Below, piece after piece: positions 4,024 through 62,200 of a stretch of DNA of 64,000 bases. The position numbers were made by a program, and so were the translations under genes. Numbering within the stretch: the stretch's first letter is position 1; each line of letters begins with the position of its first letter. Source of the DNA: Thuidium tamariscinum (Eukaryota; Streptophyta; Bryopsida; Hypnales; Thuidiaceae). The stretch is taken from NCBI GenBank assembly GCA_947034885.2, contig OX344756.2, positions 23,729,489 to 23,793,488 on the forward strand, given 5' to 3'. Under the pieces are notes generated by a model. That model did no database searches. It saw only the letters and a program-made list of their open reading frames with translations, and had not been told where the DNA came from.

Positions 4024-4589
4024 GTCCTCCCCGGTAAATAGTCACGTGGTCGGCAAAGTTAGAAATGATTGAAGTACCAACAAAAGTCTGCACCGGGACG
4101 AAGGGCAGGCAGAACGGGCACGCAACGAAAAGTTTCGACCGCCCGGACCTTGGGTTTTGCTTTATATATACGTCCTCGTCCACCCTCGACCTAATAAGAG
4201 ACCCCCACAAGCACTTTCCCTCATCACTTCCCTCACGCATCCGTAGCTCGTAGCGTGACGGAATCGCCTCGCGGAGTGTTCAATTTTGCTCTTACTGGTT
4301 CCTCTCGCGGTTGCGTATCTAGGCAGCTTCACCGCATCGACTTTGGTACATATTTTGGTAGTCGGAGCCTGCTCTGATCATCACAGCCCTGCATTTGGGA
4401 TCGCTTCCTTTAGTGAGGATTGCCTCGCGGAGCATTGAATTGGGCTCTGCGAATTGGGTCGCGAGGTTGCGTGTCTAGGGAGCTTTGCCGCGTCGAATTC
4501 CGTCGAGATTAGGGCCAGAACCCTGGTTTTCGAGAGCGTAACACATCGAGGTTTTTCAATCTTGAGTGAGGATTTGTGCTGCATTTGAG
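4024..4589 (+). promoter_or_regulatory. Promoter and 5' leader of the RD21-like protease gene
   Basis: Base composition switches sharply from AT-rich to GC- and CpG-rich near 4020. A TATA box (TTTATATATA) lies at 4161-4170, which would place transcription start near 4195-4200 and give a leader of about 390 nt. The leader contains a duplicated segment described separately. There is no upstream ATG in frame with the CDS. Confidence 0.6.
4256..4502 (+). repeat. Direct duplication inside the 5' leader
   Basis: Bases about 4260-4340 and 4419-4500 are diverged direct copies, about 160 bp apart. Both contain GCCTCGCGGAG, then a CAATT/GAATT word, GCTCT, CGCG-GGTTGCGT, TCTAGG-AGCTT and CCGC-TCGA. The two copies differ at many sites, so the duplication is not recent. 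Confidence 0.6.
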
Positions 4590-8311
<3,722 letters not shown>

Positions 8312-25169: not shown

Positions 25170-25440
25170 CTTTTATGTGGACTCAGTGTGTCGGAGGGAT
25201 ATAATTAGAAAAGTACAGGTATTAAGTTAGATTCTCTCAAGCTTGCTAGGTCTTCACCTGCCCTCTCAAATTTATTTTTGATTTTTATCTCCACTTGCCA
25301 GGCAGGCACGCATGTGGATTGCAAGTCAAATTTTTTGAAACTGAGCCTGTAATTTGTACTGGACAGGTTACAATACTTTCTCTTTTACTTTAGTATTTTG
25401 ATTATACATTTCTTTTTGGCTAGAAACTTCCAGCTACTTA
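25170..25440. other. Intergenic sequence conserved between copies
   Basis: No gene is visible. It matches 63070-63325 in copy B closely, up to the insertion point TTA at 25438-25440. Confidence 0.6.
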
Positions 25441-25441
25441 A

Positions 25442-26277
25442 CCCCTAAAAGCCCAAGGGGTTAGGACAAAACACAAATGTGCTATAAAATATAAGAATTA
25501 CAACTTTTCTGAAGTTAGTATCAAAGAAGATAATGTAAAGCATAACAAGTAGAAAGTATCCATACAGTCAAAGTAAAAAAATGTTTTTAGATTATTTTTA
25601 AATGAATTTTGAAGATATAACTTCAAAAATTCACCAAAAATACAATTTCTATTTTTAGGATTTGAAATTTTTTTTGATTGGTCAAAATTGTGTTTTTTAT
25701 TGATTTATAGAAAAATGCAAAATATTCAACCTCTAAAAGCCCAAGGGATTAAGACAAAATACAAATGTGTTATAAAATATAAGCTTTACAACTTTTTTGA
25801 AGTTAGCATCAAAGAAGATAATGTAAAGCACAAAAAGTAGAAAGTATACATATGATCAAAATTATAAAAATATTTATAGATTCTCTTCAAATGAATTTTG
25901 AAGATATAACTTCAAAAATTCACCAAAAATACAATTTCTATTTTTATGATTTGAAATTTTTTTTGATTGGTCAAAATTATGTTTTTTATTGACTTGTAAA
26001 AAAATAAAAAGTATTTACTAATGAGAGCATCAGTACTTCCCCCAAATAGTAAGTTTTTCAACACTAAGCAATTTTAGACACTTTGTACTATTTCTCCTTT
26101 TTTTTGCTATAACTTTTGCTTGACCGTACTGGTCTTAGTTTTGAATATCAATGTTGAAAGAAAACCCAATTTTTTCAAAACTGAAAAAAAAAATTTTGAT
26201 AAAAGTTTTTTTTTTGCTCGAAAATTCTGCCCGAAGTCAGGCAGCGACCAGAAAATGGTCGCTTGAGCGCTTAGGAG
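25442..26277. mobile_element. TTAA-flanked non-autonomous element
   Basis: Flanked by TTAA at 25438-25441 and 26278-26281. The left end is CCCCTAAAAGCCCAAG and the inverted right end CTCCTAAGCGCTCAAG. The first 288 bp, including the terminus, are tandemly duplicated (second unit from 25729, ACCTCTAAAAGCCCAAGG). It is absent from copy B (site 63323-63326). TTAA target and CCC-starting ends resemble piggyBac-type elements; no transposase is encoded. Confidence 0.6.
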
Positions 26278-40800: not shown

Positions 40801-42035
40801 GCAAAATGAAATAAATTATGTATACATGTCAAATACATATCATTCATAAAATCAATTCTTAGTTTATCAAAATGGATTTCTATAACCCCTAAATGCCCAA
40901 GAAGACCAAAAGTGTTCTCATAGTTTAGAAGTTGAAGTGTTGTAACTTTGTATTCAATGTCCAAATTCAATCAAACTTATTGTCAAGATTATCTACATTT
41001 TTTATTCTAGTTTGAGTGTTAAAAATTTTCAAATTAGTCCAAGACGCACAAGTTTATTGGAAGCCAATCAAAGTTTATAAGTTCAATTTGTTGATGGTTG
41101 CAACTTTGGAAGCTTGTATCTCCTTAATCCAATGTTTGATTTCAATAAAATTTGTTGAGTTATGTTCTTCAAAAGTATAGTTATTGTGGTCAAATATTCA
41201 TGAAAATCCAAATTGTTTTGAATATTTGGGAGCAATTCAAAGTTCAAAAACCAAACATTTTTGGATTATTAATAGTGAACTTCGGTAGCTTGTTTTGTCT
41301 TCACCATACAATGTCTAATTCTAGTAAATTCTTTTGGAAAAGTTGTGTGCTATAGTCTTGTTTGTATAGCTAAAGTATTATATCAATCCAAAGAGTTATG
41401 AGCGACAAAGAAGCATATTAGTAGGAGGTTGAACCTCCTTGAAGTTGCAACTACTTTCTCACATTTCAAAGTCATTTTGTAGACACAAGGAGTCAATTGA
41501 ATGATATTGTCTTATACCAATGTGTTTGTATGTTGGTTTTGAAGCACTTTATAGTCCAATTTTTTTTCATTTGAATAGGTTTGGAAATTAAATTTCACCT
41601 CCAAATGTGTTTTTTTGAAAATTTCAGCATCCTTTTTCAACACCAAAAAATTATAATCTCTCAATCTATGTGGCCAAATGACTCCAAATTTGATTTATGT
41701 TATGTGAAATATATACACTACTAGATTCTATAGTTGAGATTTACGTATCCTAATGACATTTAGACCTATAACACTTCAAAAGCAAATGATGTTTTTAACC
41801 CCTTAAAGGACTTGGGCCATTAGGGATTAACCCCAAAACACCCAAACTGTGTTTTTTGGCAAGATAGCAATTTTGTGTAGTTCACTACAAATGGAGTTTT
41901 TAATTTTTTTTCTTTGAAATTTCCATACAACATTTTCCCAAGGAGTACCTTCAAGGCCCAACAATTTTCATAGCTTTTGACTATATAGTTTAAAAGTTAT
42001 TGTAAGATATGCAATTTTCATTGATCTTTGGGCAA

Positions 42036-42110
42036 CGACGCTAAATTGTGAGCCTAAAAGCGTGAGCCTGAGAGCTGTGAGCGTACATTATGCGAGCCTA
42101 GATATTTAGT
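42036..42110. repeat. Left terminal inverted repeat with GAGCC subterminal repeats
   Basis: Within 75 bases the word GTGAGCCT/GCGAGCCT/GTGAGCG recurs about four times. The first 37 bases or so mirror the right terminus at about 55178-55214. Confidence 0.75.
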
Positions 42111-42229
42111 TGAAGTAAATTGTAATTTTTTTCAATATTCCCAAAAAAATTCAATGGACTTTTGATTTAAGGTGACCCGAGTAGTATACATCTACCCCCA
42201 GTTCATTGGTTTTGGATGTGATAGAGACC

Positions 42230-42285
42230 CTATAACCGTGGACCTAAAACCGTGGACTTTGAACCATGGGTTAAGGGTCTAAAAC
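42230..42285. repeat. Short direct repeats near the transposon left end
   Basis: ACCGTGGAC is repeated (AACCGTGGACCTA, AACCGTGGACTT) with a third, degenerate copy GAACCATGGGTTA. Function unknown. Confidence 0.45.
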
Positions 42286-42895
42286 CTATTAACATATACT
42301 ACTTCATGTACACCTTTTATTGAAGACTTTTTCCTATGATATAGAATTGAAGGCAAAGAATGTGAGATGATTGTAATGTCAAACAATCCGTTGATTCAAT
42401 ATTGGACTAAATTTAAAAGAGCTCCCAACTTTCCAAGCACTGTTTTTGCTGCTATGAAAGAATGACCCTCAATTTCAGGTTTAGGGCTTCAATAACCAAT
42501 CATAAATTTTGGAATCCATGTAGCATAAAATACAGATAATAGGAGAATGACATTTATTGGCTTAGGGTTCTTGAGCAACTTGAAAGCAAGCACGCAATTG
42601 ATAGAGTAATCAGTGGTTCAAAACAATTCATCATAAATCTATCATACAATCTAAGGTCAAGGGTTAGGGTTAGGAGGTTACAACGAAAAGGCATAAGAGT
42701 TTTAGAAAAAAAAAGGGTATTCAATGCAGAAAAAGATATATTTCTTGAAGACCGAGTACAAATGAAGGCCTACAACGACTTCATGAGGGACAGATACTCA
42801 TCCTCTATAGTTGTACCGGTGCTACATACAATCATGGATGGTGTAGAGTTTTCTAATAATCTGGTATAGATGTGCTGAATGCTAGTACTGCTAAA

Positions 42896-45800
42896 TCAGA
42901 CCTTTATTTTTATCATTCCTGCTTTCTCTAGTAGTGTCATAATCTCATCCATGCTAAAGCTAGGGGCGTGAATGAACTTGTCCGTCTTTTGGTGAACCTT
43001 GCACAAATAATGAAAAATATAATATAAATGTTTGCAGTTAACATATTTTCCTCTCTTGCCAATGGATGCAGACAACATACCAATGAAGTACAAGTAAGTG
43101 CAAGTTGGGAAACTTGAAATAGTGACACGATATACCATGTGATGAGGTTCTACACCAGACTGTAAAGTGATAACAGCTCCAAGTCCTGGATAAGGGAGGA
43201 TGTTCACTCCAAGGATATTGCCCGTGACATTTCTTGCACTCTCCCAATGATTTTGATGATCATTAGTGGGCGCCTTATCATTCCTCCGAATGTTTTTTCC
43301 ATTTCGAATGCAAGGAGGCTTATCGGAGTGAGCTGCCTTTGAATAGTTCCATTCCAAAACCTCGAAAAGTCTCGAAGATGTGAACAAGCGACGCGGAGAC
43401 AGTGATGGGCACTCTTGAAGGCGAAACCCAGCCTCTTCAAAAAGTATAATCTCATGAGAAGTAAGACTTGTACCCAGCATCACAGGCCAGATTTCAGGGA
43501 GTTGAGGGCGACTAAGGACATGAGACCTCCTAGGTCCCATAACGCAACGTTGAATGTCATCTAGACAAAACCAGAAGTCATCTGTTTCAACATTCGTACC
43601 TTTGTACTCACGTTTCTGGCCTTTATACATCGGTGCTGCAACAGCTTTAGCACCTCGAACTATGGACATCTTGCACTTCACCTCCGTCTGTGCTTGAATG
43701 GCATGGCACTTCCTCTTGGATTTCACGGAAATGCGAGCAATGTGCCACTGTGAAGGGTCACAATCCGTCTCCAATATGTGCATGGCATGAGGAAACACTA
43801 GAGCTCCTTCATCTGTGGATGCATTCAGAGCAGTGCCAGATTTCAATTGTACTCTAGGGTGAGAGAAATTGACCTTATCTGGGCGGTGAGAATCACCTTC
43901 AGCCCCAATAGGCTCATCATGCTTGCGCTTTGTGGAGCCGAAGACTTCCTCCCCTTCTAAATGGGGTACACGTGTGCACAGTTCCTTCGCACCAGGCATG
44001 CTGCACAATGCATCAATAATCTTCTTCCCGTCCATAGATGCTACTGCTCGCTTTAACTTCAGATCATGTCGGGACGGTCCAGTTCCAGAAGGTCCACCAT
44101 TTAGATACACGCGATAATTAGTCATCTGCATAAATACTCGAATCCAGTCGTCACAAGTGGCAACATATAAGTCGGTACCATGTTTCCCAGATGCTTGAAG
44201 CCACTTGTTGTGAATCGTTTCCGATAGGTTGTAGGATGGAATATCTGCTTCTTCGTCTGCAGACAAACTCTGGAAGTACAGAAATAGGACATGTTAATAA
44301 AAGTGGCAAATGAGAATAATATAACACAACCAAAATATCCATTTTAAAGTAGGGATGATCATTAAGCCAATACCATGAAAGGACTGTACCGAGACATCCT
44401 AGATACTTTTGACTATAGATACAAGAAAAACCAAATCCGCCTAGTACATATAAGTATTTTAGTTTAGAGATGTGGTTGAGGGGGGGGGCCCAGGCCCCGA
44501 CGTCAATCAATCAAAAAAGGGCTTAAGGACCCTTCTCAAAAGACGAGAGTTGTATACGGGCTACAAAATGGGCAACCACAATCCTATAGCGAAGGCCTCT
44601 CGGTGGCGAGACAGGAATCAGATGACGATCCCAGTTGCAACTGAGGGACAATTTCACTAAGTAGGAATAGTTAATGTGTGAAAATCTTGAAACTAAGGTT
44701 GTGATGAAGACAACATGGACTATGTAAAAGAAGAAATAAATAAAAGAAAAGACTTACTGTCTCCATGAATCCACCCCATTGGCGATAACGGAAGTGCCAA
44801 AAAGCTAACCAAAGCTCTAGCTCTCTCAGCGACTCTTCAGAGGCTGCACCAGACGAATACCACCATGCCTTGATTTGCAGATACCTGCTCTCCGCTTCGT
44901 CTAGAGTTTTTGCATCTTTGTAATCTCTACACAACCTCACGTGTTGAGCTTGCATATCTCTCTTGATGAGTCGTTCCGTGTGCTGCTTCAAAGAAGTTGC
45001 CCAGTGGAAAAGACACGTGCGTTCTCTATCAACCATTTTGATGGATGCATCACCGGAACCATAAACGATCCTAATGGCATTCCAATTTGCTTGAGCACTA
45101 TCTGCCATGAAGCCTTTGAAGTTGGGATTGTCCAATCCATTTTTCTCCATAACTCGATTCAAGCATCTCCACATGACGGTTTGGCCCTCCGTGTCCTCCG
45201 ATTGCATGTCGCAAACCGCTATAGTCATCACCTTGCAATAAATTGAATCATAAACATGGCAAGCGATTGTAGTCCACCCTTTGACACGCTTCACATGGTC
45301 AAACATAAGCCAACAATTCTCTAGATCCCCACCTGGTTGCATGCGCTTCACTAGATCGACTCCACTTCCAGGGCCGTCTACTAGCATCTTGAAGAGGTAC
45401 ACCTTTTCTTGTCCTTGTCCCGGAAATACACTGTCGTGAATGAACTCAATCTTGGCCTGCCTCTTCATTGCAAGTAAGCGGTCGATTTCACCTCCCCCGC
45501 TTCCATTGCTTCAGAAAGAGGCAATGATGTTCCGAACGTTTGGAGAACTTAAGACTTGGAACTTGTCCATCACTGCATCCAAAGCAGGGCCTTTCAACAT
45601 TTCTTTCGGAGAATCACCTGAATGAACCATAAAAGTATCCAAGAATTCCTTGCTAGCAGCTAAAGCTGTGGCGGAGGCTTTAGCTGTAGGTGTTTTTGCA
45701 ACCTCTTTTGCTAGAAGGCTAGAAACGGTGTCCACTGAATCTCGACAAAGACCATCTGGAACTGGGTGGTTATGATTGCCTAGATGAATGCAAGCCCAGG

Positions 45801-46914
45801 TCATATGAGATGATCCTACAACATAGTAGATCCTAGCATCACAGAAACTGACACAAGTAGGTGAAGTTTTACAAACTCTACAAGCTAAAGTGGAATCTCG
45901 TGGTGGAATTGACCCTACGAGGAACGGAGTACTAGTATTATCCAACCACTCAGTCTCGTTTCTCTTAGAGCACCTAGATATGTAATCGCAAGATCTGTTG
46001 GTACAGATAAGGTGGCCAACGCATGAAGACTTCCTGAATTTGAGGCCAAGATTGTTGTGAATGTTTGAGGTCATCGTGCGACACCACGTATGACCATCGT
46101 AGCGTTTGTCCATACCAGCCATACTCTTCGAAGAGCTCAACGAAGGTAATGAATGGCAAGGTGGCAATTCTAGGACAATATCACCGTCAAATGATGTTGG
46201 AAGAAATGGAACTGTCTTGTGCTCAATCGAATCAAAATCAATCTGGGCGAGCTCGTTTCTGCATCCTCGAATAGTTCGTAGCTTCTTCAGAGAGTCTATA
46301 ACACTCGAACTGCCTTGTTCTTGTGGATACAACGGCGGTCGAGAGAACACTGAACTACCAGCACTACTATCTCGCATACCAACGGATTCAGGTGTTCCAA
46401 GGTGCACATAAGTGCCAGCAGTTTGTGATTCGGATCCGAGACAATTGTACTTCACTGGGTCTTCCTCTGAATCACTAGACAACACAACAATAGGACAAGA
46501 GAAGCTTCCTTCATCATCCTTTGATGAAGGAAGACCGTAATGAAGAGAAGAGGGGGAGAGTCCATCAGGCTCCAGCTTGACGGCTCGCAACGTAGGAATA
46601 GAAGCTGCGTCGGCCACAGCCACTGGCATCAAAACCTCTGTTGAAGCATCCATGACTTCTGATGCTAATCCATAAGCCCTATAACGGCCAGCACCTAAGC
46701 TCCAGAAAGAGCCTTCCTCATTTCTAATTCTACGGATAAGAATGGAGTGGAGAAGCGTCCCAGATTCCGACTGTACTTCTTTCTCTACATAGATTGAAGA
46801 CTCAACAAAACCATAGCGCACGTGAAGCAAGTGGCTTGGAACATCAGCTATGCCAGAGGAATCAAGACAAAGAAAAAGTGGGACCTCGTGTCCATTTGCT
46901 CTGATAGAAGCCAT
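42896..46914 (-). pseudogene. Mutator-like (MULE) transposase, one in-frame stop
   Basis: Exon 1 runs 46914-44758 and exon 2 44269-42896, with a 488-bp phase-0 intron (GTAAGT donor, CTTCCAG acceptor). This gives about 1176 codons with a TGA at 45511-45513 (codon 468). Residues 141-152 (PIVVLSSDSEED) look like a SUMO-interaction motif. A Cys-rich region at 278-383 ends in HLGNHNHP, as in WRKY/GCM1-type zinc fingers known from MULE transposases. The core shows Asp539 (LMFDHVKRVKGW), Asp605 (GFMADSAQANWNAI), the MULE-typical CLFHW at 634-638, and Glu736 (YNLSETIHNKW). Near the C-terminus a SWIM-like finger reads FPTCTYLYFIGML followed by YVNCKH, with the second Cys of CxC replaced by Tyr. The start is the first ATG in frame. 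Apart from the TGA, which continues directly into a long open frame, the protein appears complete. It would cut and join the element's ends in the nucleus. Confidence 0.75.
44270..44757 (-). other. Transposase intron
   Basis: 488-bp GT-AG intron between the two open frames. It contains a run of 10 G (44477-44486) followed by a CCCAGGCCCC stretch. Confidence 0.7.
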
Positions 46915-47772
46915 CGCATCAACACAGTGTTGGAGAATAAAAACTAAATGAAGTCTTCTATGTGATGCAGCATGACTTGAAGTTGAGACGGTCTGGTTTT
47001 AAGCTCATGAAATTCTAGAATGTCTCCAAAATATTCAATCATGAAACTCTCATAAGATAATCTGGGAAAGGTGACATGAAATGGATCAAACTCCCATGTA
47101 TGTAGTATTGACGAGCATTAAAGAATAAATGAATATCATGCAATAAAATCAAGTTATATTGCGCTTGTCAGACATGGTTGTGCTAATAGGCGAGTTAAGC
47201 TTGTTGAGTTTTATCTCCAAGTAGGTCACCTAACTTACCATAATGAACACAGGTACCTGCATAGACTGTCAGAGTTACCTAGAATAAAATCACATCGAGT
47301 GGATCCGAAATACATACAAATCCAGAGAAGAATCTGATAATATTTCTCCTCCTAGAGCAATAGAAAATCAACATATAAGTAACTGTAATATATATAGTAA
47401 TATCATAATAGATCAACCAATCCGTTGGGAACTTCTTAGGAATTAAGAAACCAAAAATCATAAACAAGATTGTCTTTTGAAAAGAAAGATCGATAAATGC
47501 GTTTGTTTAATACTATAACAATGGTGATTTTTGAATCTACACAACAAACGACTCGTATCGTAATTATAAGATCAAATGAAATTCGGAGCTCTATAATTAA
47601 TAATTGGAGCACTAACGGACAAAATTAATCTGCACACATATAAATCATGGCTACAAACATTGGAATGATTCATTTTCAAGATCCAGGAGACACGCTACAG
47701 TAGACATGTATCCAACACTATGTTACGAGCCATTCACTACCTGGGGGAGTGTAGTTCTTATTGACAGGCCAG
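46915..47772. promoter_or_regulatory. Divergent intergenic promoter region of the transposon
   Basis: 858 bp between the start codons of the minus-strand transposase and the plus-strand cargo gene. AT-rich with no open frame of note. A TATATATAG word lies at about 47389-47397. A short leader exon for the cargo gene could end at the TTGACAG just before 47769. Confidence 0.4.
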
Positions 47773-48069
47773 ATGATAGTTGAATCCAATGCCGAATGCA
47801 GTAGAAAGTGTGTAGGTAAGAAAAAGAAGAGGGGGATGAGCCGCTGCTTCAATAGTTTGAAGTCCTTGAAAATGTCTCTTGAAAATAGGCGCAGACACCT
47901 CATACTTGCTCAGACATCACCGAATTTGGAACAAGATGTCATTGGGAATCCGGAGGCTACTTCTATTGATGGAAGCAATGAAAATGATCTACACCCTGGA
48001 TTGAGTAGTCTCCCCGAATTCCTTTCACTTATCCAGGATGACAACGGCATCAGAATTGGACCATGTAAT

Positions 48070-48611
48070 GTAAGTTTCCTTTCTCAACAATTCTACTTTA
48101 CTGTATTCCAAATACGCAAGCACCGCCTCATACTATTCAACATGTTCTAAATTCAATCCACATTGCAAATTTAGATTTAAGTAGGTCTCGACAGTGTGAA
48201 CTTATCTTTAACTGGCGTGATAATTTTATTTAAAAACAAATGACTATTTTTCCTTTTTTAATTAAAATAAAAAAAAATAAAAAAAAAACGGGCCCCGATC
48301 GGCCCGATCCAGATGGGACCCCGATTAGGGTTCCGTAGACAGAGCCTTTCGATCGCAGGCCCCCTCCTTGCCTCCGACCCTCCGAGCCGCGGTGCCACCA
48401 GCTCCTCCTCAGGAAGGCTATCGCTCCGGTCATTGAAATTTCAACTCACCTTCACGTCGTCCATCCTCCTCTTGGTGTGGATATTGATTCTATACTTGTG
48501 TAACTCCCACATTCAAAATGTTTGTGTCATTATGAAACTCAAACTCCCGAAATCATTCTCCCCGATTGATGTTCTCATGCGTTTTTCTAACGAGACAATC
48601 ACATCTTGCAG
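48070..48611 (+). other. Intron 1 of the cargo gene, with GC-rich insert
   Basis: 542-bp intron. Bases 48290-48430 are GC-rich (GGGCCCCGATCGGCCCGATCC), preceded by a long A-rich run. A 136-codon frame at 48313-48723 overlaps the insert and exon 2 in another frame. An alternative first exon or promoter here is possible but unsupported. Confidence 0.4.
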
Positions 48612-48749
48612 ATTGTCGGAGTATCTACAATGGAGACAAGGAGCGGAGCTATTGCGAGGACGGAGGCCACGGTTGCGCCCCCCATTGAGAAAGAGCCTCC
48701 AGATCTCGAGGTATGACAATTGAAGCTCAAACCCTTGAATTTGTTTTTC

Positions 48750-50515
48750 TGAGATCCCTGTTTGCGTTCAATCAGGGTGGGCAATCACACCCCACCCCGT
48801 TACCTGCCGTGCCCCAGGGAGCCCTCTCGCCACCGAGAGCCCCCATCGGGGTCGCACTTCATTGATTTTTTTATCTGTGATCCCTGTCGGGATTCACCGG
48901 GGGTGGGCAATCACACCCCACCCCGTTGTCTGCCGCGCCCCAAGGAAGCCTTCTCGCCACCGAGAGCCCCCATTCGGGGTCGCACCTCATCGTTTTTTTT
49001 TCTCTGTGATCCTTGTCTGTTTCACCCGGGGTGGGCAATTACACCCCACCCCATTGCCTGCTACGCCCCAGGGAGCCCTCTCGCCACCGAGAGCCCCCGA
49101 ATGGGGTCGCACCTCATTGTTTTTTTTTGTTTGTGATCCCTGTCTGTTTGACCAGGGGTGGGCAATCACACCCCACCCCGTTGCCTGCCGCGCCTCGGGG
49201 GAGCCCTCTCGCCACCGAGAGCCCCCATTCGGGGTCGCACCTCATCGTTGTTTTTTTCTCTGTGACCCCTGTCTGTTTCACCCGGGGTGGGCAATCACAC
49301 CCCACCCCGTTGCCTGCTGCGCCCCGGGGGAGCCCTCTCGCCACCGAGAGCCCCCGAATGGGGTCGCACCTCATTGTTTTTTTTTCTCTGTGATCCTTGT
49401 CTGTGTTCACCCGGGGTGGGCAATCACACCCCACCCCATTGCCTGCCGCGTCCCAGGGAGCCCTCTCGCCACCGAGAGCCCCCATTCGGGTCAAGTCCCG
49501 TTGAATTTCTTTCTGTGATCCTTGTTTGTGTTCACCCGGGGTGGGCAATCACACCCCACCCCGTTACCTGCCGCACCCCAGGGAGCCCTCTCGCCACCGA
49601 GAGCCCCCATCGGGGTCGCACCTCATTGATTTTTTTATCTGTGATCCCTGTCGGGATTCACCGGGGGTGGGCAATCACACCCCACCCCGTTGTTTGCCGC
49701 GCCCCAAGGGAGCCCTCTCGCCACCGAGAGCCCCCATTCGGGGTCGCACCTCATTGTTTTTTTTTCTCTGTGATCCCTGTCTGTTTCACCCGGGGTGGGC
49801 AATTACACCCCACCCCGTTGCTTGCTGTGCCCCAGGGAGCCCTCTCGCCACCGAGAGCCCCCGAATGGGGTCACACCTCATTGTTGTTTTTTTGTCTGTG
49901 ATCCCTGTCTGTTTGACCAGGGGTGGGCAATCACACCCCACCCCGTTGCCTGCTGCGCCCCAGGGAGCCCTCTCGCCACCGAGAGCCCCCATTCGGGTCA
50001 AGTCTCGTTGAATTTCTTTCTGTGATCCCTGTTTTCACTCACCCGGGGTGGGCAATCAATCCCCACCCCGTTACCTGCCGCACCCCAGGGAGCCCTCTCG
50101 CCACCGAGAGCCCCCGAATGGGGTCGCACCTCATTGTTTTTTTTTCTCTGTGATCCTTGTCTGTGTTCACCCGAGGTGGGCAATCACACCCCACCCCGTT
50201 GCCTGCCGCGCCCCGGGGGAGCCCTCTCGCCACCGAGAGCCCCCATTCGGGGTTGCACCTCATTGTTGTTTTTTCTCTGTGATCCTTGTTTGTGTTCACC
50301 TGGGGTGGGCAATCACACCCCACCCCGTTGCCTGCCGCGCCCCGGGGGATCCCTCTCGCCACCGAGAGCCCCCATTCGGGGTCGCACCTCATTGTTTTTT
50401 TTTCTCTGTGATCCCTATTGTGTTGACCCGGGGTGGGCAATCACACCCCACCCCGTTGCCTGCCGCGCCGCGGGGGAGCCCTCTCGCCACCGAGAGCCCC
50501 ATTCGGAGCCACGGC
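48750..50515 (+). repeat. GC-rich minisatellite in intron 2 of the cargo gene
   Basis: About 14 direct units of roughly 125-131 bp, each with GGGTGGGCAATCACACCCCA, CCGTTGCCTGCCGCGCCCC, CCCTCTCGCCACCGAGAGCC and a T-rich spacer ending CTGTGATCC. Two dyads recur per unit: GGGTGGG/CCCACCC and CTCTCG-CCAC-CGAGAG. Spacer variants show higher-order structure: three successive unit types starting at about 48834 recur in the same order from about 49612, a 778-bp block duplication. It produces long spurious open frames on both strands. Confidence 0.92.
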
Positions 50516-53500
50516 CTTGTAATCTTTTACACGCTGCTGATCTTGGAATTTTCCATCCATTTGAATTGTCAGGTGGACAGTACTTGCAAGTCGTCCTCAG
50601 TTCCTTCCTCCACCGTTGCTGGAGCGCACGATTCTATAGAACGTAGCGTTCAATTGCCCCCAGTGCCGGCCCCCGCCAATGAAGATGAAGACCACATTCG
50701 CAGGTCCCAAAACGTTGATTCAATTTCAACAATAGCTAGTATGCGAATCTCCCCCAATCGCCTCTCCCGAATGGCGATCCCATTGTGTCGTATGGTCCCC
50801 ATGCCGATGGTGAGACCCACCTTGGATTGTAATGTGGACGAGTTGGAGACAAAATTCGTTCATGGGTATGAAGACGGAGCAAGAGTATTCTATGTTTCTG
50901 TCTCAAACGAAGAGGGCGAGGTAGGTGTGTTCTCTGAAGAGGAGAAGCTCGGATGGGGTCCGATTTGGAATGACGTGAATGCTGAGTTTAACAAGGAGCT
51001 CAGTAGTCATATTGAGTTGCAGCACTTGGTTGATGCCAAGTTCTACATTTGCGATGGCAATCACAGACATGCTGCATGGATGCGGCATATCAAAAGGCTT
51101 CACAGTGGAGAAGCTAAGTGGCACGTGCGTGTGGACTCCATCATCTTGGACACAAAGGATAGGCTTGGGGCAGCAATGCAAGTCATGCATGATGTGAACA
51201 AGTGAGTTCTCATATCTTATTATCACTCTTTTGTATTGAGATATCTTTTATCCATTTGGAATACTTACAGTGTGTTTGTTTTTGAAGGCACACAGAGAAT
51301 TCCTTCGTGAAGACGAATCTTGTCCACACACTCTATCGTGTTCGTAAGTATGGAACAATGTCCATTGAGAAGTTTTCCGAGATTTTGAGCTCAGAGGACG
51401 TTTGACTTTGCAGCGGCTACGCCCAAAAGAAGACTTGGTACACGATGCCGTTGGAAGTATTCACCACATTTATCTTTCAGGTTCGACATAATAAACTTCG
51501 TTTTCTGGGTTTGTAATCTTGTTTTTACAGTCATTGGTCTTGAATTTGCATCTTTATATGGCATTCAATTTGACCCATGACTTCTATGTTGTGCAGCAAG
51601 AGATATCTATTGCCTCAGATGCTGGAGTTCGCAAGTATCGTGAGGACACGGCCCCGGAAGATGTTACCAATACTGGTATTGGAAATGCAATGAGAAATGC
51701 AACGAAGGATGCCACGGACAAGCTTTACAAGAAGCTTTCGAAGATTGTGTCCGTTGCTAATCCTGCATTGGGAGATGATTGGCTGAAGGAGGTTCGTTTC
51801 TTTTAGCTTTACAATTCTTGTAACCTTTTAGGATACTTTGTATTCATTTTCGTTCTCTTATGTGTTGGTTTGTGCTTGCAGATTGAGAGGCACTGGAGTT
51901 TGTACAGTGTCCAGGAGTTGACGCTAGACAAACTTCAACTTATTGCTACTGCCAATGCGAGCCCACAACACAAGGTGAAGTGGTTGAAGTGGATAAATTC
52001 ATCCGCCCCTACTCGTGAAGCTCGTCGTGTTCCACCCAGACCAGCTAATGACGACAAGATTGGTTCCTTCTTATACAAGGCGGTTTGATTTGCAGGGGTA
52101 AGTAAGCATATTTGATTCATTGCTTTTGTTTCTTAAATAATTGGCCTAGTAACCTTGATTTACCTGGAGGACCTGATCTGATTCAAATTTGTGTTCAGTT
52201 GGAGGATGTAGCTCTTGAGTTGTATGACAGCATACTGAAGTCTGACAACATCCAAGTTAACATGGACGTGCCCGCTGAGCCAATGTCTCTTTCTGAATAC
52301 ATCGAGACTTGGAGGATGAAGTTGTGGGAACACTCGTATCCTGGAGTCTTCAAAGGAGTTGAGTCATTCAAGAAATCTGAGTCCTTTAAGGACTATAAGG
52401 GCTCCCTTCTCGCCGTGAGACGGGTCCTATACAGGTACTTCTTTTACTTCATTTTGATCTACAAAGTCAGTTATTTTCCCTAGTTTCTATTTGGAATTTG
52501 ATATGTAGGCCGTGTCTTTGCAATCTAATATACTTATTGACTAAATCGAAGATAACCAAAGCATCATTGTTCATTGATTCCATCACAAGTTCTAATTAAT
52601 GTCTAATTCTTTTTGGCCTTCTTCACTGTCTAGTATGGGCATAGTATGATGTTTAATGTTATGGTTTTTATTTGGATATGATCTTGACTTATGATTTGGG
52701 TTACTTCTTTAGGTACTTCACATTCGAATTATATGGAAAGCAAGCTATCTCCAAGTCCGATTTACCGCCATTCTTACGTTCGTGGCGTGACTCTACATCA
52801 TCGGATTGTATGTTTTCACCCACTCAACTGAAGTTTTGGCCAATCGGCCATCTTCAACTTGGTGCGTGGTACTTGGATTGTACCAAGGGATTTACGGCAC
52901 CGGAAGAAGTGGCCCTATTCCAGAGCATCAAGGACTGTGTTGTTGTGCAGTCAGAGGTTGACGAGTTCTCCGGATTGGAAGGTGAGGCTCGTGACAAGGC
53001 CATCAAGAAGCGGGAGTTGGAGAATAAGAAGAAGGAGGAGAAGTTGGAGTTAGCCAAGAAGAAGCTTGAGGACACCGCGGTGAGAAAGAGAGACAAGTTG
53101 GCTGAGACGGCGAAGAATGACGGCAAAGAGAAGAAGAAGGGGAAGAAGCGCAAGGCGGAGGCTGCCCCAGTGGAGCATGCAACAAGTGATTTGGCCGCCA
53201 ACCCCACTTCCTCGGGTTTCTCACTTACGAAATCTCAGATGCAACAGGGAAATCTCACTTTGGCTCCGGTTGCGGTTGTGGATGCCAATGTGGATGAATG
53301 CATTCTGAATGAGTCTCTCACCAATTTGCTTGGTTCAGATGATGGCCCTATCCCCGCTTCATTCACGAAGGTTCTCTCCCTTCTAGAAAAGGTAATTACC
53401 TCTATAGTCAATGCTTTGAACTATGAACATGTTTTGTCTTTATAGTATAAGGGTGAGTGTGGTAAAATTCTTTGTGTTTGATCTTGAACTTCTATGAAAT

Positions 53501-55139
53501 TATTAATAAAAGTGTCCCTTGTTTTCTCTTATCTGCAGCATGCTTTGGACAAGGATCGTTTCTTCGATGGTGATGTTACTAAGCAGGCCTTAGTTGATCT
53601 CATTATAGTGGATGTTCTTGAGGGCTTACCTGTCCCTAACATCTCTATTCCGCCATCCTCTGTTCCAAATTAGAACAACTTTTCAGAAGAGTGGCTACAG
53701 ACGATTTTTGATTTCGCAGAGAACTATCTTCATGATGGTGGTGGCCTTGTTCTCATGTACTCTCTGAGTCGTGAGATTCGATCTTATGTTTTGGATTTCT
53801 CTCGGAAGTATGGATTTACATCGAAAATGGAGTGGATGGTGTGGAACAGACTACGTCTTACCAATCCACTAGACCGTTCTTCCACGGTATGTTCTTCTGG
53901 TCTAAGAAAATAGACTATTTTCTTTTCCTTTTGAAAATGTTACATTGATTCTAATGTATTGGAGTGGATTTGCAGACTGTGCGCTTCAAAATGAACTTGT
54001 ATGTAAAGTCTGAGAAGTCCCGCTTTACATTTCGTCATGTTCCAGCGCACCAGGCTATCGACCTTGACATTGGCAGAGATGATCTTGTCCTAAATTGTTG
54101 TGAGAAGGAGGATTTGGCAATGAATGGTACCATTCCATGGCGTGGTTCTCGTGAAAAGGCACGATCTTTCATGCAAATGATCATTGAGGGAACTACCTCG
54201 CCTGGTGACATCATCATGGATTGCACAGCCTCTACAGGTTCTATTCTTTACTGTATATCACCTTATTTAGTGTTTTAACACATGTCTTTTGCATTTGAAC
54301 TTTGAACTTCATATCTTATTTCTTTTAATGTGATTGGGATTCTGCAGGAGCAAGCATCTACGCTTGTCGGGCTACTGGCCGCCACATTGTAGCGTTGGAG
54401 GCTGACAAGAGCATTTTTGATGCACTTCTAGCTCCGCTCACACGTCCCATTTCAGCTCCAGAGCCAACTCCACAAAGCTCTACACCTGTCCCGATTGCTG
54501 ACGATGAGGAGGTGGTACCAATCCGGCAATTGCAGAAGACTTCGCGCTTTAGTAAGTAAGTCATTTTTTTTTCAATACTTTGACAATGTGAGTTCCCATT
54601 GTTTAGTATCTGACATTTGGTGTCATGATTTTGTAGGCAGGAAGCCAAAATGAAGATGCAGAGATCCTGACCATTCTTTGCTAAACCGACGTTTTTCCCT
54701 AGCCCTCCTAAACCTTTTTTGTTACCCGTGTATGCTGAGGCAGTAGCCACGCATTCTCAGACCATAGATACTCAACCATCTTTTAGATCTCGTAGAACGG
54801 ATCCACGAGTATCATTGTTTGTAGATGAGTCTGCTATAGAGTCAGACAGTGAGCTATCGATGAGTGGTGAGAGCTCTACATCAAGGTCTTCTAGTAGTAC
54901 CTAGACCCACCTAAACTCTCTGATTTTGAACCCACTTTACTCGTATTTGATATTTTGTGTTGCTATCTATTTGGTTCTATATGCCATCACTGTACTGAAT
55001 GTATAACCGCTATTTTGTTACTTTCAATCCTTTCTATGCCCTCTGCTGGACTTTGGTGTTCTAACTTCATTTGTTCCCTATTTCTAAACCGCCCTAAAAC
55101 TTTTTCCACGGTCTTAGGCCCCACTTTCAAAAATTCCAA

Positions 55140-55218
55140 AAAAAGTTGAGAAATTCCTAGGCTCGTAGGCTCTTGGGCTCTTGGGCTCACGCTCCTGAGC
55201 TCGCAATATAGCAACCCC
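55140..55218. repeat. Right terminal inverted repeat with GAGCC subterminal repeats
   Basis: Read on the minus strand: GGGGTTGCTATATTGCGAGC, then GCGTGAGCCC, AGAGCCC, AGAGCC and ACGAGCC words, mirroring the left end. Confidence 0.75.
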
Positions 55219-55231
55219 GATCTTTGGGCAA

Positions 55232-58030
55232 TTTGGGCAACAAAAAAAAACTTCTTAGAATTTCTTTTAAAAGATGTAAAAAATTAAAATTGATTCTTTA
55301 GAATTACATTGACATGGGAAGAGACTCCAGACCTACTTGCAAAATAAAACTCGTCATAACTTTCATCTCATTGATTCAAATGGAATGATTCAAAGCTTCC
55401 CATTTCAATATAAATCTAAATAATCAACTTTAATTTTTATTTATGAAAAAAAACAGTTTAAGAGAAACTTTTTGAGGTGCCTGTGTTGCCTAAAGATCAA
55501 AGAAAATCACACATCATGCAATAACTTTTTAACCATGTATTCAATAGTTATGAAAAAATTTGGACCTTAAAGCTACTCCTTGGGCACTTGTTTTGTGAAA
55601 TTTTCAAAGAAATAACAAGCAAACTCCAATTGTACTGAGTTATCCAAAATGGCTATATTGCGAAAAAATAAAAGTGTTAGCATTTAAGGGTGAAATACTT
55701 AGACTTCAAAATTTCTATTCTAATATTCCTATGAAACATTTCTAAACTGGAAAATTCAGTAATATTCAGTAATATGCTCACATGAAAATGAACATTCAAA
55801 AAAGAATTTTCATAAAACTTTTTGAATAAAAAGGATAAACAACAAAATTATTGACTAGTGGATAATAATTTATAATAAAACATAAAAATATCAGATTGAT
55901 GTAAAAGAATTTATTCTATTTATTTAAATATACAAATCAAATGTTCATAGCTTCAAATTCTACCTCCAAGACTGCAAGCTTCATTATCATGAAATTTGTA
56001 GAACATTTAATATGCTTTGTTGCATGCAATGTCTTTAAAGAATCTAATACATTTATCACAATCTCAATTTTTAAATTTTTTTAGTAATGATAACATGATA
56101 CCAATATCCCAAACAAAAAAAAATACTGATTTAACCATAATTGTCATGTTTTTATATTTGTCCATGATTCTTTGAAAACCTCAAACTAATTCTTACAATG
56201 CATTAATTAAGATCCAATGAAAGATACCATGCATTGATTTCAACCTATGGGCTTCAATTTCTATAAAAGTCTCTTTGTCTTCTAATATTTGCTTATGAAT
56301 ATAATTGCATGAGATTTTAACCAAGTAGTTGAAACAATAACTACTAGACTCACAAGAAGGCTACATCCTCACTATGCATGGAGGTGTAGGGATGACAAAG
56401 ATTGTACAATCATGACTACTCCTAATATTATAGGTTCAACAAGATTGACCTTAATTCTTGGCCTATTGTTTCCATTGATTCTAATGTGGCATATATCCAA
56501 TGGATATGGCATACAAGCATTTACATACATAACCTTCTTTTATGGACTTTAACCTTAGAGTAATCAAATCTTACATAAGAAAACTTCTATTAGTTCTTGT
56601 ACAAAGTAATATGTTGTATAATAAAATACAACTTTGTAGCTTGATTGTTTTTGTAATACATAAATAATTTTCAAAAAATAAACTTTCAATAATTAATCAT
56701 AATTCTTTAGTATACATAATTGAACTTGTTTTGAGGTGGTATTCTCAAAGATGGTCAAGGTTGAATTTTATTGTTGTACGAGTCTACAAGTGATGTCTTG
56801 TATTGCTAGAACAAGTTAATTTCTAGGTGCCAAAAGTAAGCTCTTTAATCTCCAAGTGGTAATTTCCATAAAATAAAATTGAGAGTTTCATGTTCAATAT
56901 GTCATTATTAATTGGATATAAGGGACAAAAGAAAATATTTCATGCTGAGTATAAGTCACAAATATACTATTTTATTTGAAATCTGACAAATAAATAAAAG
57001 ACATATAAAAATTGTTTCTTATATTATGCAACATCAAATTCATTTTTTAATCAATGGGTTCGCTCCGCCATTTATTCAAAAAAAAATTCATTTTTAAAGT
57101 AAAAAAAGTTAAGACCTAGCAAATAGGGGATTAAATACTACACTATTAATTCTATATAAATATATAATTAATGTTGTATTATTAGTATCATAAACTTTTT
57201 TCAGAAGTTTCAAATTTTTATTGGATTTATATTCAAATTATTTATCAATCATTTTTTGTATAGTGAAATAATGAATATGTACTTTTCATATGAAATTTAT
57301 ATTAAAGAATTAAGTTCAAAGTCTCAAAAAAAACTCAAAGAAAACAACACTTGATTTTCATTTTTATGAAATTTATTAAATAAAATTAGGTGTATGATTA
57401 AAAAAAAATAATTTTTAATAGCTCTAAGATGGGATTGAAACATAACAATTCCAATGGGGAGCTAGTTCTAGCAAGCAAACATAACCTTGTCAAACAATTT
57501 TTTTTAAATTGTAAAAATTGCATTTGGAAATGAATTCTATACTAAGTTATTTTTTCAAGAGGATGCTAAGATTATCTCCAAATCAAGATTTTTTATAATA
57601 ATTACATCACTTATCCAAATGCAATAAATCAAAGTGTATCTTTAAAGATTTTTTTTTAGAAATTTGTAAGAAGTTTTTGTGGATATTTTATTTGCCCCGC
57701 TCAATTAAAATTTAGGCTTATTTTGGAATAAATTTTGTTTTTAGACACCAATTGGAACAAAATTATATTTCTATAAAAGTAGTATTTTTTTCTATATTAT
57801 GAGAAGGTTTCAAGAATTTTCAATAGAAATCGAGGCCATAGGAAATTGTTGAAAATTAAAACATTATGTTTTTTAAAGAGACAATTATGGTCCTTTAGGG
57901 ATTTATGGTCCTTTAAAGATCAAACATGTGCTAATCCAACTACAAACATTGTGGTGTTGTATTTGATGAATGGAAATCTAATTTTAAAATCCCAAAATTG
58001 TATACAAGTGGAAAGAAAAACAGTAATGTG
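55232..58030. other. AT-rich intergenic DNA, copy B
   Basis: Collinear with 18043-20755 of copy A, with many small indels. No gene or RNA feature is visible. Frames present in one copy are broken in the other. Confidence 0.6.
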
Positions 58031-59216: not shown

Positions 59217-62200
59217 TTATAAATCATAGAATGATCTTATGTAATCTACCTCACTTTTATGACTCCTTTTTCTACTTTCAATGCTTTGTGCCATCTCCTC
59301 CAATAGACTTCTAAGAATCCTTTCACAAATGTTCCGTGGCCATGGCCTTTGCTCCCATAGACTTTTGAATAAATATGCTACACTACCAACACACACTGTT
59401 CCCCCTACCATTGTAGGAACTATCATATACCATTGATACCTCACAATAGGTATCAATACAATAAAACCTGCAATTCCAAATGCCATCACTACAAAAATCA
59501 TTGAAAATGCTAAGAAGACAGCCATTAGTATTAGATTTTGGGATAGCTTCTTCACATTTCCAATGATGAACAATTGCTTCCTTGGTAACACACTACTAGC
59601 CCCAAGGACAACTGTTCCGACTGCAAAATAGAAGGAAAGGGAGTTAAACACCCAAAACCATCCCAAGGCAACGTTGTGCTCAATATCAACATACTTCGCA
59701 GAACTACCATGATATGGCGTGGTGTAGTTCAATGGCGGTTGCAGCCACGAGGTAAATGTGGCACTGGCAATGAAAGCTGCCCCCACAAGAATGGCACTGG
59801 AAGTGTCGACATAACCTTGCCGCTCTCTAATTGTTGAGTCGATGTACCACTTCACATCATCACATCTCATCAGAGCAGTTTCAATGTCTTTGAAGCCGTC
59901 TTCATGCGCAATTTGGATTGGTGGTCGGCCTTCGTGACATGCCTCATTGAGTTGGATCTTGTCTTGCCACTCCAAAAGCTGCAAGACAACGTTGGTCTTG
60001 CCCAGGGCAACTGCGAGATAGAAGGCTGAATACTTATAACCATCCTTGGCTTTTACATCGATGCCCTTGCGGACAAGCGATTGAATGATTTGGGAAGTCT
60101 TCTCCGGTTCCTCGGCACGTGTGTGAACCACTGCCAACTGAAGTGAACCCTTTCTGCCGGTATTAACCTCTGCGTTCTTTTCTAGAAGGGCATCCACGAT
60201 CTCGCTCTCCCCACCCACAATGGCCAAGTCGAGGGCCGAATAAGAGGCCCAGGACGGAAATGGGGGGAAGCTGAAAGCCGAGTGAGAGAAGAAGACAGCA
60301 ACGATGGGGGAGTCGATATGGACTTCGTTCGGTACTGAGCGGGTTTCCAATATCTTCTGCACCATCTCAAGGTCCCCCATCAGGACTGCCAAGTGCAAGA
60401 GACGCGCGTCCTCCAGATGAACACGGGTTTCCTTGATTTCTACTTTGGAATTTTTCAGAAAGGGATCAGCTCTTAGTTTCGCCACAACTCCCACAAAGCA
60501 GGGATGGTCCTCGATATCTGCCCAATCTGCTCCAGAATTGGGTGAGCCAAAAGCGCGTCTCCAATTATTCTTTAAATTTCGCAAGTGTTCCTCCTGCGTG
60601 AGTGACCATGAACAAGGTGCTCTGGCACTCCCATCTCCTCCGCCGCTACAGTCTGAGGGCGTCGGATCCGCACCGTGGCCGGACCACATCGACGGGACTG
60701 AAGTGATCTCAGCCTTCTGCAAAGTGAAGGCAGTCGTGAACCGTGATTCACTCAGCAATCATGCCAATCGCAGCAAACACGATCTCAACACGCATGCAAA
60801 TATGTGACTAGAGTATTTCACCAATTTGTGATCGCCCCCCATTTCCAATCATTAAGCTGTTTTCTTTCCGTGAAGTTGTGGTGTAGTTCCTACAACTATC
60901 GGCACATTATGATTGGTTGCAAGGCTCTCATAAATGCAACTAACCTTTGATTGATTTTGCAATCAGCCTATATCATCATTTTAGGTGCAAAGAGAATCTT
61001 CAACTAAAAAATTCATTGTAATTATCATTTGTTTAATGAAATTCTGGAAAAATATGGCATCCTTGCGAATTCTATTTTCTATACATGAAAAAAAATTTGA
61101 ATTCAAAAAAGCTACACTCTACATATGTGTAATTGCTCAAGTGATTGGAAATGGGTGAAATACTCTACTGCGATCAATCTCAGTTTCCTGCAAAAGGGGG
61201 TCACCGCGACGAAATCCCAGCACACATCATCTGAATAGTATCACGTATACCACACATGTCGGGACATACTCAATACATAATCTCGTGATTAATGGGACAA
61301 GCCTGGCAATGAATTGCACATTTGCGCAGAGTAGTGGGACGGGAAATTTCAGAGTTGCTGGCAGTGCATGTACTGATGCTTACCTTGTCTGGGACTTTCA
61401 TCTCGTCGATGAGATTATCGTCGGGTCCCATGGGCCCTTCCACGACTTCACCTCGATCCTCCAAATTCTGCACTTGTTCCTGGTGCCTGCGTGACGACGG
61501 ATGAGAGGCTCCACTCTCGTCAGCTCCGCCGCTACGGTCTGAGGACGTTGTCTTCGCAGCTGAAGGTCCCTCGGGATCCTGGGCAACGAAGCGGAAGTCG
61601 TCAGAGCTTCGCTCAGCAACGATGCATGTTCCAACAGGTCTACACGATCTAAATCTGCACTACTAACAAGTGTATCATTGTTGTGAGTGTCGACATCTCG
61701 GTTTTATGCAAGGGAGGTCACCGCGACTATCCCCCAACATACTGTAACATCTGTACAGTTTCATGTATAAGGTAGAGGCACCTCAAAACGACACTTGTTT
61801 CAAATTGACAAATCTTGAGGGTAGCTACAAAATCAAATGATGTGTGTTTGTAAGGAAATGGTTCAAGAAACTAACAAAATTGATTTTGTATTTTTTCAAG
61901 CTTGTTTTAATATAATATAACTTTTTGAAAACAGTTACATAGATGCACCTATCGTGCACACTAGACTAACATCAAAGTTGACACACAAAGCGACATACTC
62001 ATAACCTTGGATCCTATGTGAGTGATTGGCCATTTCTTGGATGAATGAGAACTTCTTCAAACCTCACTTGTCCACTTTAAAACCCCAAGTCTTGGGTCCA
62101 CTTGCGCTTGAAATTAGGTTCTTTTCTGGATGGCAGAGAACGACTAATGCTACAAAGTAGGGCACTCCTACCTTACCACTGCTATCGGGACACGTTCACT

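Follow-up and report, generated by a model that had tools for sequence, protein, structure and literature searches.

A moss DNA transposon pairs a Mutator-like transposase gene with a ParB-like, methyltransferase-related cargo gene that holds an intronic array of palindromic cores

Introduction

What does a protein resembling a DNA methyltransferase do for the transposon that encodes it? The question is raised by a 13.2-kb element of the moss Thuidium tamariscinum, which lies in a 64,000-nucleotide stretch of genomic DNA (C8:23729489-23793488, hereafter the window) within the 363 Mb in 19 contigs that we searched. The element carries two divergent genes, one for a transposase and one, here called the cargo gene, for a protein that combines a ParB-like part with a part homologous to beta-class DNA methyltransferases. 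We find that the cargo gene is a standing partner of the transposase and not a one-off capture, that its protein has been under selection, that the catalytic tetrapeptide DPPY has been replaced, and that the second intron holds a tandem array with conserved palindromic cores. Our tentative answer, held with slightly less than even confidence, is that this is a two-gene DNA transposon whose accessory protein loads on its own array in an anti-silencing or self-regulating role.

Results

The element and its ends

Comparison with 10 further genomic copies places the transposon at 42033–55219. In 10/10 of these copies the right end is no more than 3 bp from 55219; in six, the left end is no more than 4 bp from 42033, the left part of the other four being rearranged, lost or beyond the stretch examined. 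The limits given in a preliminary description of this DNA, 42036–55218, are corrected here from the ends that the copies share; the matched terminal repeats and the target duplication that it had noted are present. The terminal inverted repeats (TIRs) are short and imperfect, with 28 of 36 positions matching between the ends, and a match as good was seen in 0 of 1000 shuffles. A target site duplication of 9–10 bp was found in all seven copies of which both ends were read (window included), with 1 mismatch in one of them.

42033–55219: whole transposon, ends common to the copies compared
42024–42032: target site duplication, left copy, ATCTTTGGG, 9 bp
42040–42075, plus strand: left TIR, best-matching core
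55177–55212, minus strand: right TIR, best-matching core
55220–55228: target site duplication, right copy, ATCTTTGGG, 9 bp

The transposon is itself nested in another repeat with long inverted arms of its own (41852–42036 and 55485–55668; 131 nt at 79% in one measurement, about 185 nt in another), and its insertion point is the inner edge of the left arm.

A divergent gene pair, decayed in the window and open elsewhere

The transposase gene is on the minus strand. The cargo gene runs divergently from it on the plus strand (47836–54777) and was spliced by hand into 12 exons, with the ParB-like DGNHR box and the methyltransferase motifs at the positions that had been claimed for them.

42896–44269, minus strand: transposase second exon, 457 codons
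44758–46914, minus strand: transposase long exon, 719 codons; stop at 45511–45513 in the window copy
47836–48069, plus strand: cargo exon 1 (tentative), open frame with a GT donor only
48612–48710, plus strand: cargo exon 2 (tentative), from hand splicing
50573–51201, plus strand: cargo exon 3, ParB-like segment; DGNHR at 51053–51067
51288–51480, plus strand: cargo exon 4; TGA stop at 51403–51405 in the window copy
51597–51791, plus strand: cargo exon 5
51882–52097, plus strand: cargo exon 6; TGA stop at 52086–52088 in the window copy
52199–52434, plus strand: cargo exon 7
52713–53391, plus strand: cargo exon 8, with a Lys/Glu-rich stretch that by eye resembles a coiled coil
53539–53886, plus strand: cargo exon 9, methyltransferase N-half; motif IV, DVLE, at 53611–53622; TAG stop at 53671–53673 in the window copy
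53976–54237, plus strand: cargo exon 10, methyltransferase motifs X and I (PWRGSREK; DCTAST at 54219–54236)
54348–54555, plus strand: cargo exon 11, end of motif I and acidic motif, GRHIVALEAD at 54377–54406
54637–54777, plus strand: cargo exon 12 (tentative), coding in the first codons only

Exons 1, 2 and 12 are tentative and the start codon is uncertain. The borders of exons 3–11, traced in up to 17 sequences (without copies L049 and L051), keep GT/AG in most copies, several having single altered sites. In a second subfamily (B) the start of exon 3 was not located and its first ~93 nt differ, leaving the first ~31 residues unsure.

The window copy is decayed, with three in-frame stops in the cargo gene and one in the transposase gene, and therefore cannot make the full cargo protein. 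C-to-T decay was considered as the source of the window's stops and set aside: C>T and G>A together make up 21 of the 47 changes private to this copy and are not clearly in excess of T>C. The window's cargo product, with X at the stops, found no homologue among 7996 scored candidates, a list that lysine-rich words perhaps crowded. The preliminary description had proposed to look for intact relatives, and copies with stop-free frames exist in the same genome. A 988-codon frame without stops runs from exon 3 onward in copies L045, L046 and L047 (the exon-3 acceptor is unlocated in all three, and one splice acceptor is altered in L045 and one in L047), and the long transposase exon is fully open in another copy (C1_47.4m).

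The cargo gene is a standing partner of the transposase

DNA searches of the genome were made with three parts of the element, the best 40 being scored from each of 53, 155 and 64 candidates. For each of the best 40 own-family transposase matches (window included), a ParB or methyltransferase exon lies on the other strand no further than 35 kb away; for 38 of them the distance is at most 15 kb. Conversely, among the 40 methyltransferase matches scored, a listed transposase accompanies 37 and a listed ParB exon 35. Protein searches, with the best 150 scored from each of 568, 607 and 815 candidates, extended down to identities of 36% for methyltransferase exons, 50% for ParB exons and 67% for transposases, and placed at least 44 methyltransferase-exon loci, counting the window, in the window's own family. 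Own-family members were set aside by eye (46 methyltransferase, 44 ParB and 39 transposase matches), leaving 104, 106 and 111 respectively, the last including one transposase (C3:20919823) that may belong to the family. Of these more distant transposases, at least 67/111 have a divergent partner within 15 kb and at least 72/111 within 25 kb. Random positions gave a mean of 0.8 and a maximum of 5 divergent partners in 500 trials, as against the 67 observed; this control used guessed sizes for contigs C5 and C10, the latter larger than guessed, and the margin is too wide for that to matter. Other arrangements within 15 kb amounted to one transposase with a ParB match and one with a methyltransferase match. 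At least 35 of the 104 non-family methyltransferase matches have a listed ParB exon 5′ of them, on the same strand, within 10 kb. Far from consistently lacking the cargo gene, as had earlier been allowed that they might, related transposons thus carry it both inside the family and well beyond it.

The cargo protein has been under selection

Between the two subfamilies the ratio of nonsynonymous to synonymous substitution (dN/dS) is lowest in the ParB exon (0.063), followed by exons 5–7 (0.095), exon 8 (0.147) and the methyltransferase part (0.29). Five copies were taken per subfamily, stop codons were skipped, and frameshifted, inserted or exon-missing copies, as well as L049 and L051, were left out. 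Between the window and copies L045–L050 identity jumps near 53.3 kb (about 53300), in introns and exons alike; against L046, for example, identity is 92–98% across exons and introns in the 3′-terminal third of the cargo gene, as opposed to 66–91% in its 5′ part. Since the jump affects introns as well as exons, the subfamilies have exchanged their 3′ parts, and this makes the methyltransferase comparison young and less telling. Stronger selection as the cause of the high methyltransferase-exon identity between subfamilies is ruled out, the introns being equally similar.

These data bear on the possibility that the cargo gene is an old capture, carried passively, and the intron array a neutral minisatellite. 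The broken state of the window copy and many others would suit such a passenger, and intron minisatellites are able to spread by copying alone. However, dN/dS of 0.06–0.15 across the ParB and middle parts, stop-free ParB exons in 86 of 106 matches from families at 50–67% identity, and the retention of the pairing in diverged families all speak against it, and we regard it as very improbable.

The methyltransferase part has lost DPPY

The preliminary description had proposed that the cargo protein might mark its own element by adenine methylation. Homology to the beta class of N4/N6 methyltransferases is apparent both in the motif order, IV-X-I, and in phmmer searches of PDB sequences, which matched DpnA at 5e-6 (residues 19–229) and CcrM at 4e-5; a two-row profile gave weaker values (5e-5 and 0.002), and the NCBIfam CcrM model matched at 2e-6, below its cut-off. 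A methyltransferase alignment found no relative in viral contigs, and among phages 56 records had weak matches, most of the 20 listed spanning motifs X–I only.

In the alignment to DpnA, VDVPE of the cargo protein stands opposite TDPPY of the enzyme. DPPY performs the chemistry in beta-class methyltransferases, whose catalytic motif is defined as (D/N/S)PP(Y/F/W); the cargo protein has no such tetrapeptide at motif IV. Of 17 exon-9 copies, 16 read DVPE there, the window copy being the exception with DVLE. DVPEG also occurs in two database proteins, P0121 and P0122 (60% and 45% identity), the sole two matches of that search. Because family copies and distant relatives alike read DVPE, the change is old and has been kept. 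Decay of the window copy as its cause is ruled out, only the L of the window being private. One fixed DPPY-coding 12-mer is absent from the window, which says little. With DPPY lost, binding becomes more probable than methyl marking; the earlier proposal is weakened, and adenine methylation by the cargo protein appears doubtful.

It is nevertheless conceivable, although we rate it as quite unlikely, that the protein binds its own element and methylates it (at N6-adenine or N4-cytosine) despite DVPE, so marking it as self or as permissive. Such an activity would agree with the homology and motif order shared with DpnA and CcrM, with the retention of the domain in distant relatives, and with the self-binding and self-modification that have been proposed for ParB-methyltransferase proteins of algal transposons (PMC12477816). 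Against it stands the replaced tetrapeptide, in the family and in P0121 and P0122 alike.

Intron 2 holds an array of palindromic cores

The second cargo intron contains a tandem array that had been missed before, and one matching core lies in the transposase gene:

48740–50506, plus strand: tandem array, about 14 units of ~128 bp, in cargo intron 2
44597–44612, minus strand: single palindromic core, 1 mismatch, inside a transposase intron

Each unit holds two cores, GGGGTGGG-N9-CCCACCCC and CTCTCG-CCAC-CGAGAG, some with a mismatch. The array is found in 10 of 11 copies with 4–18 cores each (the count for C6_24.83 being limited by the stretch examined); the remaining copy, C1_6.1, is without the region. 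Across 94 units from 10 copies, the most conserved columns are the two palindromic cores. An exact 21-mer around the second core has 197 matches in the genome, against 0 for a reversed control. All 100 of the matches that were listed have a same-strand ParB exon 3′ of them at a distance of at most 8 kb; they belong to 15 elements, two showing the subfamily-B pattern. A reverse-strand core on the transposase side recurs in 6 of 10 further copies. As single-stranded DNA, a single array unit folds somewhat better than shuffles of it (z −2.6). The intron array lends support to the earlier suggestion that the cargo protein binds repeats of its own element, a binding that is put forward here as a prediction.

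A further possibility is that the cargo protein serves as a transposition co-factor that binds the ends or subterminal regions and assists nicking or the assembly of a synaptic complex, its ParB-like part being a nuclease or a clamp driven by nucleoside triphosphates. The pairing of the cargo gene with a transposase gene would fit, as would reports of nicking or nuclease activity in ParB-like proteins, including a fusion of ParB with an adenine methylase (PMC5512222). We consider such a role unlikely, however, as the conserved repeated cores are intronic and a search of the window copy gave no core match at its ends.

The ParB-like part

Exon 3 encodes ICDGNHR(Y/H)AAW, which contains the G-x-x-R box of the ParB/sulfiredoxin superfamily; DGNHR is invariant in three aligned copies. 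Searched alone, the domain gave weak profile matches over this box: DUF1015 at 0.005, DndB at 0.025, the ParB-like PHROG 1033 at 0.007 and the TIGR DndB model at 0.004, the Pfam and NCBIfam values being below curated cut-offs and PHROGs having no cut-off. DUF1015 is related to the ParB superfamily. DndB has been termed a ParB superfamily enzyme (PMC10853773). A ParB alignment found no relative in viral contigs or in contigs of prokaryote genomes. The assignment of the exon 3 segment to ParB is likely, not proven: of the ParB-like identity proposed earlier, the DGNHR box is present, while the profile matches are weak and the genome has no match to ParB_N.

A ParB-like motif together with an array of 16-bp palindromic sites also brings to mind bacterial ParB-parS, that is, partition or copy maintenance of an extrachromosomal form of the element, and 16 bp is about the length of parS. 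Canonical ParB, however, binds parS through a helix-turn-helix domain, and Pfam scans of the element's proteins found neither ParA nor a helix-turn-helix. This is the least probable of the explanations considered here.

The transposase gene and its label

With residues 260–715 of the open copy C1_47.4m as query, 146 transposase relatives were found, with identities of up to 73%; among the best 120, which were listed, not one has a precomputed Pfam domain, and a PDB search with the transposase profile returned nothing usable. In a Pfam scan no transposase model (PF10551 or PF00872) matched the open reading frames of the window. PF00872 was weakly matched by 2 of 62 relatives (E-value 0.034 or weaker) and PF10551 by 0 of the 62, and the 33 matches to PF10551 in the genome all lie elsewhere, none in the transposase lineage of the window element. 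The consensus of the 62 relatives keeps FDHV...CDMQSED...ADSAQANW...RERTCLFHW, residues which, read by eye, we take to be the D...D...C-x2-H order of Mutator-like elements (MULEs). The element also shares with MULEs the terminal inverted repeats and a target duplication in the range of 9–11 bp; it lacks a transposase domain recognised by PF10551 or PF00872. Given the 9–10 bp duplications and the motif order, Mutator-like is the best label for the transposase, its membership being not proven. The gene that had been called MULE-like is a transposase gene, and the label depends on duplication length and motif order.

Neighbouring features in the window

Two similar ankyrin-PGG genes on the minus strand flank the transposon, by eye a duplication. 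The window also contains a protease gene and a short tandem repeat; the protease and ankyrin-PGG genes are of types that indicate a plant host. Beyond the window end lies a methyltransferase exon that belongs to another family of this type.

4566–7356: papain-type cysteine protease gene with a granulin domain
21538–23016, minus strand: ankyrin-PGG gene
25440–26005: 289-bp unit in two head-to-tail copies, 89% matches
59217–60758, minus strand: ankyrin-PGG gene
C8:23827450-23827788: methyltransferase exon of a different family (41% identity), about 34 kb past the window end

Discussion

An accessory protein that may load on its own array

The layout of the element resembles that of the VANDAL transposons of Arabidopsis, Mutator-type elements in which an accessory gene stands beside the transposase and carries tandem short motifs, varying in repeat number, in its introns. 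The VANDAL accessory protein binds short motifs in tandem repeats, including those in the VANC21 and VANB21 introns (PMC5735166), and strips methylation from the element (PMC5735166, PMC10398659). The Thuidium element likewise has an accessory gene with a tandem motif array in an intron. The two differ in that VANC proteins bear DUF1985 and DUF287 (PMC5735166), neither of which a Pfam scan found in the cargo protein. VANDALs are described as non-TIR elements, whereas the Thuidium element has inverted repeats. The parallel ends at the cargo protein's C-terminal part as well: to our knowledge, VANC proteins have no methyltransferase domain.

The VANDAL-like layout and the loss of DPPY together lead us to prefer binding with an anti-silencing effect as the explanation. 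One gene would encode a distant Mutator-like transposase. The other would encode a large DNA-binding accessory protein that begins with a ParB-like part and, after a middle region, ends in a beta-class methyltransferase fold with the catalytic tetrapeptide replaced. This protein would recognise the palindromic cores in its own intron array, together with the single core in the transposase intron, and load there, its methyltransferase-derived domain, inactive or altered, serving more to bind DNA and the cofactor S-adenosylmethionine (SAM) than to transfer methyl groups. As a result the divergent promoters of the element could be kept open, which would give the protein an anti-silencing or self-regulating function comparable to that of VANC in VANDALs. 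In a more specific version, ParB plus a dead methyltransferase, both of bacterial type, would form a non-methylating reader that sits on a parS-like array and spreads from it to keep the element unsilenced, convergently with VANC; we consider this version possible, but on the unlikely side.

Several observations weigh against the proposal. At the ParB-like end, matches to ParB relatives weaken when the whole cargo protein is scanned (DUF1015 0.03, DndB 1.1), ParB_N (PF02195) matches nowhere in the genome at E-values up to 0.1, PDB sequence searches with this part returned nothing ParB-like, and none of the phage records matched it. At the methyltransferase end, PF01555 matches the domain alone at 9e-5, below its curated cut-off, and a whole-genome search with the same model gave no match at E-values up to 0.001; selection appears weakest here by dN/dS, with a low dS that comes from exchange between the subfamilies, and an altered motif IV is no proof that activity has been lost. 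Being fixed in one family, the array could also be a minisatellite that is passively inherited by descent. As for kinship with VANDAL elements, a Pfam scan found the VANC domains DUF1985 and DUF287 absent from the 988-residue cargo protein.

Comparison with other transposon-borne DNA-modification proteins

ParB-methyltransferase genes on transposons are already known in algae, having been described in brown, green and red lineages (PMC12477816, where Iyer 2011 and Petroll 2025 are cited for the green and red algae). By that description, the algal proteins resemble the one studied here in joining both domains in about 1000 residues, in being encoded on the strand opposite to the transposase and in residing on large DNA transposons; the brown algal case is a Sola1 element, whereas the Thuidium element is Mutator-like, has many copies, reads DVPE for DPPY and has an intron array of palindromic cores. 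Fungal transposons of several lineages (KDZ, hAT, EnSpm, Helitron and others) carry TET/JBP, also a DNA-modification enzyme, which is proposed to counter silencing (PMC12730594), but they differ in host, enzyme and reaction. Retrotransposons of Symbiodinium and Klebsormidium also encode proteins of DNA methyltransferase type (PMC5890265), which unlike the cargo protein are C5-cytosine enzymes and belong to retrotransposons. The same pairing of domains occurs in a bacterial ParB-methylase fusion, Bce_0392 (quoted in PMC5512222), which is prokaryotic. DpnA and CcrM, prokaryotic too, share the methyltransferase homology, and DpnA reads DPPY in our alignment. CcrM and Bce_0392 also have DPPY, and we know of no transposase partner for Bce_0392, DpnA or CcrM. 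Our literature search found no report of a ParB-methyltransferase pair on Mutator-like elements or in land plants, nor of such a pair in which the catalytic motif is replaced and an intron carries a matching array.

Few systems have been worked out in which transposons escape silencing, and how they do so is still an open question. The Thuidium element is present in many copies, with stop-free relatives in the same genome, and since the protein and the array, the two halves of a possible binding system, occur together in one element, a test of binding would be straightforward. If the methyltransferase domain is indeed inactive, the published proposal of self-modification would fail for the lineage to which the Thuidium element belongs.

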